Positions 30,615-39,073 of a stretch of DNA of 64,000 nucleotides are shown piece by piece. Each line of letters begins with the position of its first letter. Within the stretch, counting starts at the first letter, position 1. The notes beneath the pieces are model-generated. The model was not told where the DNA came from. It searched no databases and saw only the letters and a program-made list of their open reading frames with translations. Made by a program: the position numbers and the translations under genes. Source of the DNA: Candidatus Alistipes faecavium (lineage in GTDB: Bacteria; Bacteroidota; Bacteroidia; Bacteroidales; Rikenellaceae); contig DWYP01000010.1 of NCBI GenBank assembly GCA_019118605.1, positions 1-64,000 on the forward strand, written 5' to 3'.

Positions 30615-31379
30615 ATGCGCTATTTCCTGGAACTTCGCTACAACGGCGCCGCCTATTGCGGGTGGCAGCGGCAGCCCGACCAGCCGTCGGTGCAGCAGAC
30701 CCTCGAACGGGCGCTCACGACCCTGCTGCGCGAGCCCGTCGAGGTGACCGGCGCAGGCCGTACCGATACGGGTGTCAACGCCTCGTATTACGTGGCGCAC
30801 TTCGATGTTGCGACACCGGTCGCCGATCCCGCGCAGACGGTCTACAAGCTGAACTTCCTGCTTCCGGGCGACATCGCCGCGGGAAGCCTCACGGCGGTGG
30901 CGGACGACGCCCACGCCCGGTTCCATGCCCGGGAGCGCGAATACCGCTACTACCTCGAGCCGCACAAAAACCCCTTCACGCGCCACGCCACATGGCAGTA
31001 CTACGTGCCGCTGGACGTCGCGCGGATGAACCGTGCGGCGGCGACGCTGCTCGAATACGAGGATTTCACGTCGTTTGCGAAGCTCAATTCGAACAACCAT
31101 ACCAACATCTGCCACATCCGGCACGCCGCATGGACGGTCGACGAGCGGGGTGTGCTGTGCTTCACGATCCGTGCAGACCGTTTTCTGCGTAACATGGTGC
31201 GGGCGATCGTGGGGACGCTGGTCGACGTGGGGCGCGGACGTTACACGGAGGAGGATTTCCGGGCGATCGTCGCGAGCCGCGACCTTTCGCGTTCGAGTGC
31301 CGGGGCTCCGGCGCAGGGGCTCTTCCTGAGCGACGTGCGCTACCCTTCCGAACTTTTCACGCGGCAGGTAACGTGGTAG
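30615..31379 (+). CDS. truA: tRNA pseudouridine(38-40) synthase TruA
   Basis: MRYFLELRYNGAAYCGWQRQPDQPSVQQTLE; GAGRTDTGVNA. Confidence 0.98.
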   Translation: MRYFLELRYNGAAYCGWQRQPDQPSVQQTLERALTTLLREPVEVTGAGRTDTGVNASYYVAHFDVATPVADPAQTVYKLNFLLPGDIAAGSLTAVADDAHARFHAREREYRYYLEPHKNPFTRHATWQYYVPLDVARMNRAAATLLEYEDFTSFAKLNSNNHTNICHIRHAAWTVDERGVLCFTIRADRFLRNMVRAIVGTLVDVGRGRYTEEDFRAIVASRDLSRSSAGAPAQGLFLSDVRYPSELFTRQVTW

Positions 31380-32620
31380 TTATTCAAGCCGCTTTTTTGA
31401 GTCTTTTTTTGCTTTCTAAAACCGGCTTCATAAGCTGGGGCGCAGAACGGGGGCGGATTCGGGATGCGATTCCTTTCGCCCCCTAAAACCGGCTTTTTAA
31501 GTCGGCGGGCGCAGAACGAGGGCTGATTCGGGATGAGTTTCCTTTCGCCCTCTAAAACCGGCTTCTTAAGCCGGGGCACCTTTTGATGGCAAAAGGTGCC
31601 ACCAAAACCATCCGCATATCGTTCTTTGCGGAATCCGGAGGGCCGCAACGCTGAACGGGCGGAGTAAGATCGGGCCTATACTCCCTCCCGTTCGGGGCGC
31701 GCTGCGGCTCTCCGGATTTTTTCTCCGCAAAGATCGAGAATGCGGAAAACTCTTTTGCGCGTATAAAAGGGATTTCCGGCCCTGCGAAAAACGCGATCGA
31801 GAAAGAGCGCGTACCGGAATGCAAGCGCCGGGGACGGTTTGCTTGCAAACCCGCGTAGTCGCCCGGCGCCATGGAGGGACGTGCTCTTTCCGTGTTTTTC
31901 GCACGCCGGGCGGTTTTTGCGCCGCTTTTTGCCGATTCAAAAAGCGGCTTAATCCAACGACCGGAACGGTCGGAGAAGTTTTTTACCGACTCTGAAACCG
32001 GCTTCTTAAGCCGGCGGGCGCAAAACGAGGGCTGATTCGGGATGCGATTCCTTTCGCCCTCTAAAACCGGCTTCTTAAGCCGGGCCGGCACCTTTTGGTG
32101 TCAAAAGGTGCCACCAAAACCATCCGCATGTTGCCTTGCGCGGGTTCCGGTTCGTCCTCACCCGGCGCAGGACAGGATCCAGTCCGTGATCTGTCTGCAT
32201 TCGCCCTCTAAATCCGGCTTCTTAAGCCGGCGGGCGAAGGAAGATCAAGCCTTTCCTTCCTCCTTTTCCGAGCGCTCGGAGCCCCGACAAATCTATTTCC
32301 GCGCAACGCGAAAATGCGGAGGGGATTTTTACGCGCAAAAGCAAGAAACAGAGCAGGTAAAAGTAAAGCGGTGTAAAGGTGTAGTAAAAGGAATTCCGGC
32401 TCTGCGAAAAACGCGATCGAGAAAGAGCGCGTACCGGAATGCAAGCGCCGGGGACGGTTTGCTTGCAAACCCGCGTAGTCGCCCGGCGCCATGAAGGGAC
32501 GTGCTCTTTCCGTGTTTTTCGCACGCCGGGCGGTTTTTACGCCGCTTTTTGCCGATCCAAAAAGCGGCTTAATTCCAACGACCGGAACGGTCGGAGAAAT
32601 ATTTTGCCGACTCTAAAACT
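31380..32620. repeat. Structured repeat island 1: 67-69-bp hairpin units, two long-stem modules (A, B) and two copies of a 121-nt nested-hairpin module
   Basis: Stem-II hairpins (CCGGCTT-CTT-AAGCCGG type) begin at 31422, 31489, 31558, 31998, 32067 and 32214. Long-stem modules 31612-31745 and 32124-32319. Nested-hairpin copies 31783-31903 and 32403-32523. Confidence 0.9.
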
Positions 32621-32639
32621 GCCTTCGATCTGAAAAAAC

Positions 32640-32670
32640 GCCTTCTCCGCAAATGGAGAAGGCATTTTTT
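32640..32670. terminator. Bidirectional-looking terminator
   Basis: GAAAAAAC-GCCTTCTCC-GCAAAT-GGAGAAGGC-ATTTTTT. Confidence 0.85.
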
Positions 32671-33570
32671 CATGGCAGGTTGTTGTGGAGGAATCGGGCC
32701 GTTCGATCGATGAACTCATCGAAGGCAATGAGCATGGGGTCTTCGTTGCCTCCGTGTGCCGCATCCTTGACCACCATCAGCTCCCGGGGGGGTATTTTGC
32801 GGCAGCAGCTCCAGAATCTTCCGGCTCATCCACACCGGGGTTCGGATATCGTTTTCGCCGACGATCAGGAAGATTGGTTTCCGAAAATCGGAAGCGATAT
32901 GTACAGGCATCCGTTTTGTCGGGAAATCTGCAGGAACGAGCAGCTGATCCCGGTTCTTGTTGCGAACCTGCATAACCAGCGGGATGAAATCCTCGAAGTC
33001 TGTTGCCAGGGAGCGCCCGATGAATGCCCCGACTTGAGGCATGTCATACGCTGCGATCATTGATAAATAGGCGCCCGTCGACCATCCGACTACGGCGATC
33101 CGCTGCGGATCCACCTCCGGCAGGGCGGCGACTGCGGAGACCACGGCTCTGTAATCCTCGAGCATTTCGGTGTAACACAGGTAATCGGGATCCATTTCGA
33201 ACTCCGAACTTGCCCCGAACCCGCGCCAGTCGAACGTGATGACATGAAATCCCTTTTCGCACCATCTTCGGGCCAGATGCAGCTGGAAATAGGACATGTT
33301 GCCCGCATCACCGTTGCAGATGACGATCGCCGGACGCCGGATGGCGGAATCTCCGGCCGACTGCGGGACAGCCGCCTTCTGTTGAGGAGCCTGCCGGTCG
33401 GCGGGGAAGAACCACGTGGCGATCCGATACCCGTCCTGCGTCCTGACGTCGAGATCTTCGTAGACCAGCCCCACCTGTTCCGGCATGCGGATGTAGGTGC
33501 GGTTCGGCTGGATGGCCGAAACCCCCGGAGAGAGGAACAGGGCGACAAGAATCAATAAGAACGATCGCAT
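32670..33570 (-). pseudogene. Secreted alpha/beta hydrolase, reading frame interrupted at a C7 tract (or phase-variable / sequencing error)
   Basis: Hydrolase motif VVGWSTGAYLS. The 284-aa ORF runs into GGQGCGTRRQRRPHAHCLR, but removing one C at the G7 run (32786-32792, plus strand) restores TPRELMVVKDAAHGGNEDPMLIAFDEFIDRTARFLHNNLP* ending at 32670. Confidence 0.8.
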
Positions 33571-38503: not shown

Positions 38504-39073
38504 CGTTCCGCCGGGCGGGCGCAGACCGGGAGCCGATTTGTAATGCGGTTCCTTTCGCCCTCTAAATCCCGCCTCTTAGGCGGGTGGATGGCGAAAGAGG
38601 CTTTCGGAATCTCTTCAAGATTTCCTTTGCCGCCCTAAAACCGGCTTCTTAAGCCGGCGGCACCTTTTGGTGTCAAAAGGTGCCACCAAAACCATCCGCA
38701 AGTCGCCTTGCGCGGGTTCCGGCCGTCGCCCCCGCTGAGCGGGCGAAGGAAGATCTTCGCCTATCCTTCTTCCCGCTCCGGGCGCGTGGGCGTTGCCGGA
38801 TCTTTTTCCGCGCAACGCGAGGATGCGGAATTATTTTGTGCGTATAAGAAGGATTCCGTCTTTGCGCAAAACGAGGGCTGATTCGGGATGAGTTTCTTTT
38901 CGCCCTCTAAATCCCGCCTCTTAGGCGGGTGGATGGCGAAAGAGGCTTTCGGAATCTCTTCAAACCCTCCTTCGCCGCCCTAAAACCGGCTTCTTAAGCC
39001 GGGGCGCAGAACGGGGTCTGATTCGTGATGTGCTTCCTTTCGCCCTCTAAAACCGGCTTCTTAAGCCGGCGGG
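38504..39073. repeat. Structured repeat island 2 (same family as island 1)
   Basis: Stem-II hairpins at 38568 (CCCGCCT/AGGCGGG), 38641, 38913 (CCCGCCT/AGGCGGG), 38986 and 39053. Long-stem module 38696-38828. Runs up to the stop codon at 39074. Confidence 0.9.

Follow-up and report, generated by a model that had tools for sequence, protein, structure and literature searches.

Introduction

Structured interspersed repeat families are well described in Proteobacteria and streptococci, and the BOX elements of the latter have an RNA structure. In Streptococcus pneumoniae and Streptococcus mitis, BOX elements form intergenic mosaics of separate modules, and related genomes often have them at one and the same position, expanded or reduced (PMC2828477). 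The REP, BIME and REPIN sequences are palindromic and intergenic, lie 3' of genes, and occur in arrays and inverted pairs; their stems show alternative complementary residues and wobble pairs suggesting RNA (PMC3733652, PMC2817692). CGTC-tagged REPs have also been reported in Bacteroidetes, apparently without a dedicated transposase (PMC3733652). ERIC-type and other stem-loop families are intergenic repeats with a shared predicted secondary structure, and the text of the survey covering them names no Bacteroides or Porphyromonas family (PMC2267715).

Results and Discussion

A mosaic of hairpin modules downstream of truA

The locus studied here lies in the window, the whole 64,000-nucleotide stretch of Candidatus Alistipes faecavium DNA that was analysed. 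Directly after the stop codon of truA (31377-31379; PF01416 match) begins a non-coding mosaic of hairpin modules (31380-32630), which stops just short of an ordinary bidirectional terminator (32631-32672). Beyond the island lies a convergent gene whose product is an alpha/beta hydrolase by Pfam. The island is built from A units (67-69 bp), K hairpins, long stems (L), nested hairpins (X) and small hairpins (H). Terminal hairpins of A units are located at 31422, 31489, 31558, 31999 and 32067, with a further one at 32214 inside an L module, and a 193-nt repeat that contains the nested-hairpin module is present at 31761-31953 and 32381-32573 (96% identical). The features, with their window coordinates and strands, are as follows.

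31380-32630, no strand: whole mosaic hairpin island, truA to convergent hydrolase gene
31422-31438, plus: first of the array, a degenerate terminal hairpin of A type with a TAAAA motif before it
31440-31505, plus: A unit a (GCG...CTAAAA and hairpin CCGGCTT-TTT-AAGTCGG)
31509-31574, plus: A unit b; RNA fold -26.8 kcal/mol, z -2.82
31575-31600, plus: K hairpin 1, GGCACCTTTTGATGGCAAAAGGTGCC, then ACCAAAACC; z -4.05
31612-31745, no strand: L1 long stem with GC-rich cap; minus is probably the preferred RNA strand
31776-31910, plus: X1 long nested stem, with its apical module around 31830-31865
31911-31948, plus: GGTTTTTGC linker region and H1 hairpin GCCGCTTTTTGCCGATTCAAAAAGCGGC (31921-31948)
31959-31973, plus: small hairpin Q1, CGACCGGAACGGTCG
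31999-32015, plus: A-type terminal hairpin with degenerate 5' half
32018-32083, plus: A unit c, 94% identical to unit b in a 93-nt register
32087-32112, plus: K hairpin 2
32124-32319, no strand: L2 long stem, split by A unit d
32165-32230, plus: A unit d within the L2 cap; compare the unbroken L in L032, L033 and at window 38720
32396-32530, plus: X2 long nested stem, second copy
32531-32568, plus: linker and H2 hairpin
32579-32593, plus: small hairpin Q2
38508-39070, no strand: second island with five A-type hairpins, K and L, between proC and an M23/LysM gene

The original prediction had described about 1.2 kb of non-coding DNA, built of hairpin modules, between the truA stop codon and a convergent hydrolase gene, with no credible ORF and no CRISPR-like spacers. 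Gene finder, Pfam and repeat analyses bear this out: the dicodon gene finder called 0 genes at 31380-32715, and the two longest ORFs inside the island had no Pfam match. The predicted unit coordinates were correct to within one base, the A hairpin at 32214 being an addition. A CRISPR was ruled out, as the tandem A units are 72-94% alike over their whole length, without unique spacers.

Folding energies were compared with those of dinucleotide shuffles. For the long stem at 31612-31745 the energy is -83.5 kcal/mol (z -9.25) and for the X region -110.1 kcal/mol (z -6.29), with 0 of 200 shuffles as low in either case. The K hairpin reaches z -4.05, and folding of the A units in the window is modest (z about -3). 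In the neighbouring hydrolase ORF (window 32716-32800), a G run, CCCGGGGGGG, lies near the 3' end and the C-terminus is odd; a frameshift or an assembly error at this end is possible.

Anatomy of the repeats

The core member of the family is polar, spans about 190 nt and has two parts. The first is a long, imperfectly paired stem topped by an apical module that is nearly invariant; the second, an H-type hairpin, comes after a GGTTTT linker. Read on the strand that gives the best X fold, the order is X, GGTTTT(T), and then hairpin H with CTTTT...AAAAG in its stem; in some species, a short variable hairpin (Y) precedes the long stem. The apical module reads GGRGMC, a short hairpin with a CNNG or TTTA loop, CGCG, 2 to 4 nt, and the return strand. 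An H-type hairpin follows within 220 nt downstream in 96 of 103 copies, compared with 4 copies where it is upstream and 0 in shuffles.

On the minus strand, L-K is laid out like X-H, and in An66 and its relatives an L-type stem is capped by the X apical module. We infer from this that X-H and L-K are probably variants of one design with exchangeable caps. In JAMPDE, the copies combine two types of X arm with several types of Y and about three of H in varying assortments.

A units are separate from this core. Across the family they measure 64-69 bp, start with GCG and end with TARAA and a hairpin whose T-YTT-A closure is invariant and whose stem covaries; before the hairpins stands TAAAA or TAGAA. 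Mimicry of a lysine anticodon arm by the TYTTA loop was considered and dropped, as there is no supporting arm. G002 has an array of its own beside X elements (L225, L229, L230), with repeats of roughly 70 bp (CCTTTTCGRTAAGCCGAA...GAAAAGG) that are unlike A units in sequence and similar to them in layout; one copy supplies the queD stop codon.

Relation to described repeat families

Like BOX, the family is a mosaic of independent modules at conserved intergenic sites with change in size. It differs from BOX in belonging to another phylum, in having no known sequence relation to it (compared via Rfam only, with no match), and in combining a bipartite core and its near-invariant apical module with separate arrays of A-unit hairpins. 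With REPs and BIMEs it shares palindromic sequence, the intergenic location 3' of genes, the arrays of alternating orientation, the inverted X pairs, and stems in which complementary residues alternate and wobble pairs occur, but the element measures about 190 nt as opposed to 20-40 bp. Both this family and the CGTC-tagged REPs consist of stem-loop repeats without a known transposase, yet here we saw no CGTC tag and the bipartite element is much larger. Common predicted secondary structure in intergenic repeats also recalls the ERIC-type families, from which this one differs in being polar, two-domain and found in Rikenellaceae only.

Membership in the REP/RAYT system was rejected. A RAYT, the Y1 transposase of IS200/IS605 type for which the original prediction had suggested looking, was found, at the sensitivity of PF01797, in 0 of 61 Alistipes genomes, all BLASTN-positive ones included, while the same search had matches in 5 of 14 named genomes used as a control. 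Neither a GTAG nor a CGTC tag was seen beside the A, K, H and Q hairpins.

Distribution

In the window, the second island (38508-39070) fills the gap between the convergent stop codons of proC and the M23/LysM gene. BLASTN located further islands on contigs 13, 16, 17, 27 and 34 of the source genome (G000, a 2.39-Mb draft in 49 contigs). Overlapping island sequence is present at the ends of contigs 27 and 16 (L031 and L032), so that these two contigs are probably adjacent and joined by an island.

Counting the source genome, 12 of 61 Alistipes genomes contained BLASTN copies, and the other eleven are exactly the eleven closest to it by truA (80-90% identity). A covariance model (R1) detected a diverged form in G002 (truA 73%). 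A model including this form (R3) matched 31 of 180 Alistipes genomes at E<=1e-5. Across Rikenellaceae, R3 matched 33 of 268 genomes, in 3 of 22 genera, and among other Bacteroidales 0 of 344 genomes from 195 genera; this search, which the original prediction had proposed, thus saw the family in Rikenellaceae only. The exact core pattern was absent from 394 other Bacteroidales, and in 85,488 species genomes it occurred in 86 stretches, nearly all from Alistipes. Among the 80 of these 86 stretches that were listed, 78 were labelled Alistipes. One match listed, 'Bacteroidales bacterium C35', is on a contig that matches G060, which is placed in Alistipes. One listed match in Chthoniobacteraceae was judged to be due to chance, although the covariance model gave it 25 bits, because the flanking GGGGMC...CGCCCG, the rest of the core, is absent.

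No Rfam family matched the island above its gathering score, nothing resembling it was found in 50,697 phage and 72,556 plasmid records, and the exact core was absent from 2.9 million viral contigs. In open-access papers on interspersed palindromes or RNA motifs of Alistipes and Bacteroidales we found no description of it. The repeat family is real, restricted to Rikenellaceae and absent from the libraries and open-access papers searched.

Position relative to genes

Gene context was derived with a dicodon gene finder trained on the known genes of the window and applied to all loci, which had been collected around elements; gaps bearing elements were compared with gaps of the same loci. Elements were present in 108 of 672 gaps, of which 35 were convergent, 67 co-directional and 6 divergent. 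Convergent gaps were enriched (35/108, 32%, against 12.7% of element-free intergenic length, p 9e-8), mainly through A/K islands, and divergent gaps were depleted (6/108, 5.6%, against about 26%). In co-directional gaps, some of which resemble operons (L077), X lies on the gene strand in a ratio of 38:15 (p 0.002), a preference that local GC skew, as a proxy for the replication strand, is too noisy to separate from replication-strand bias. The corresponding preferences of A and K were not significant (12:5, p 0.14, and 10:6, p 0.45), and 0 X elements fell within predicted genes. Among 337 flanking genes, the recurrent ones were orthologous or from ordinary families, with no recurrent mobile gene and no transposase.

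Downstream of truA, islands are present in G000, G042 and G023, and G013 has an A-like hairpin there; none was seen at this site in G032, G053, G054, G048, G007 and G060. An A hairpin overlaps the 3' end of truA in G042 (L195, about 2240-2275) and G023 (L199, about 2247-2275) and supplies its stop codon, as TTTTAG or as a TAA within the hairpin. In G060 (L204) and G012 (L205), a heptamer microsatellite (GGTGAAA) directly follows truA, where relatives have an island.

Covariation and strand asymmetry

The stems of the apical module and of the A hairpin change in compensatory fashion. In the apical module, 9 of 17 pairs showed compensatory changes, compared with 0-5 when the partners were slid, and this count was reached by 6 of 500 shuffles, a control that ignores phylogeny. 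There were 69 compensatory cells, against 0-20 when slid. Columns 11 and 38 of the alignment alternate between A-U and C-G (14 and 13 sequences), and the pair at the base of the apical hairpin is G-C, U-A or A-U. Further compensatory counts were 13 of 24 pairs and, for the A hairpin, 4 of 7; the 99% pairing of the A hairpins is partly a product of their selection, since they were gathered with a stem filter. According to the original prediction, a family with neither a preferred context nor covariation beyond phylogenetic expectation would not be a novel structured one. We found both a preferred context and covariation exceeding that in the shuffled and slid controls, neither of which models the tree fully. 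Covariation in itself does not prove RNA function, because template switching at the DNA level can perfect inverted repeats and so mimic compensation.

The predicted RNA folds are also asymmetric between strands. X folds better on the plus strand in 57 of 72 copies (p 6e-9), with 393 G-U pairs versus 232, A folds better on the minus strand in 60 of 78 copies and K-L on the minus strand in 30 of 41. Tolerance of G-T pairs in single-stranded DNA could contribute to this asymmetry. As the sense strands within the island are mixed (X on plus, but A and K on plus as well), its copies cannot all act on one transcript.

Homogenisation, shared sites and nesting

Scattered through intergenic DNA, copies resemble others of their own genome more than those of other species, including the ones that occupy the same site there. 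Mean X identity within genomes was 91% in G012, 82% in JAMPDE, 86% in G002, 92% in G000 and 72% in G054, compared with 59-74% between genomes. Several sites are common to two or three species, and yet pairs from the same or neighbouring sites across species reached 60-67%, no better than average, with one close species pair at 90%. Copies have thus been homogenised within genomes or re-inserted at favoured sites; the low average of the G054 copies shows that homogenisation is uneven. The queD-polA gap has elements in both G002 and JAMPDE, an overlap that is real and, being a single one, could be due to chance. On inspection the gaps at purH-purM differed, and we rejected it as a deep shared site.

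Near-identical dispersed copies occur within JAMPDE and within G002 (identity up to 0.99), with no target-site duplication evident by eye in the JAMPDE copies. Modules are also nested, with an A unit inside the L2 cap and an A hairpin inside an X of An66. The inverted repeats of the island are internal stems, and no transposase or recurrent mobile gene lies near the copies. Two X elements of opposite orientation often lie within about 235-420 bp of each other, an arrangement that recalls REPs in BIMEs. Examples are found at L115, L117, L135 and L182; on G552:C1 such pairs are located at 264381/264727, 2425316/2425644 and 2490420/2490842.

Origin and role of the island

The best-supported description is that the family behaves as a mosaic repeat of the BOX/BIME type. 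Of the possibilities named in the original prediction, REP/BIME-like elements hold as a description of behaviour (mosaic copies scattered between genes, more frequent at convergent gene ends, with covarying stems and folding that differs between strands) and fail as membership in REP/RAYT. Its 3'-end RNA structures are likewise supported as behaviour, by the enrichment at convergent gene ends, the covariation and the asymmetric folding. A non-autonomous mobile family is likely, given dispersed, homogenised and nested copies, though neither a mobilising gene nor a target duplication nor an IS end that matches came to light; the absence of a transposase had been predicted and agrees with the genomes and flanking genes searched.

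We consider it fairly probable that the island is a local pile-up of Rikenellaceae-specific mosaic structured repeats, acting as RNA structure. Judged by their folding and context, the copies probably work, or at least are tolerated, as stable RNA structures downstream of genes. They would be transcribed within 3' untranslated or intercistronic RNA, where they may protect 3' ends and separate convergent transcripts, a role against which stands the ordinary terminator already present beyond the island. Multiplication and homogenisation could proceed via gene conversion, template switching at hairpins or mobilisation by an enzyme acting in trans, and A-unit arrays may arise by tandem duplication and insertion into other modules.

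The same repeats could be REP-like non-autonomous elements at the DNA level, whose single-stranded hairpins are recognised by a mobilising nuclease and whose role as RNA is incidental. Compatible with this are the hairpins that flank the Y-X-H element on either side, dispersed copies that are nearly identical and show no obvious target duplication, closely spaced inverted pairs and A units nested in other modules, but we regard it as rather unlikely, given the lack of a Y1 transposase in 61 Alistipes genomes and of a recurrent mobile gene beside the copies; the co-orientation of X with genes also suits transcription better, with replication-strand bias only crudely tested. The convergent enrichment would equally be expected of intrinsic terminators that have been copied around, each a GC-rich stem with a short U run behind it, serving both directions where genes converge, and the preferred strand does have GGTTTTT after X, GGTTTTGG after L and TTTTA after the A hairpin. 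However, these runs of U are short, and other species have them interrupted, with TTCTA behind the A hairpin; a T run of at least 4 directly follows the folded foot in only 46 of 103 copies, and copies also occupy operon-like co-directional gaps. A terminator scan found 5 sites versus 3.1 +/- 1.9 in shuffles, and these 5 include the ordinary terminator that lies outside the island. Such an origin appears quite improbable. Decay from one ordinary IS, phage or integron remnant is hardly credible. The repeats break contigs, as IS do, but they match nothing in the phage or plasmid records searched, their exact core is missing from viral contigs, and decay would produce neither compensatory change nor a bipartite layout that stays fixed across genera. 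As to integrons, an attC site was rejected, since X of the window lacks the GTTRRRY/RYYYAAC boxes expected at the stem foot, and CTAA/TTAG is found in the stem of some clades only, the window copies not among them.

Within the favoured interpretation as structured RNA repeats, we tentatively raise the possibility, itself doubtful, that the bipartite element is a new, selected class of structured RNA in Rikenellaceae. Its intergenic copies, which can number dozens in one genome, would then be spread or homogenised through a process that works on RNA or single strands and does without a Y1 transposase.

Conclusions

The repeats account for some of the contig breaks and long spurious ORFs in Alistipes drafts. 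The family belongs to common gut Bacteroidota and has a clear, testable two-domain structure, without the enzyme that explains REPs. Whether interspersed repeats are selected RNA or merely tolerated DNA parasites is a long-standing question. As covariation, strand asymmetry and gene context here point to RNA, it can be tested in cultured Alistipes whether these repeats are selected as RNA or tolerated as DNA parasites.
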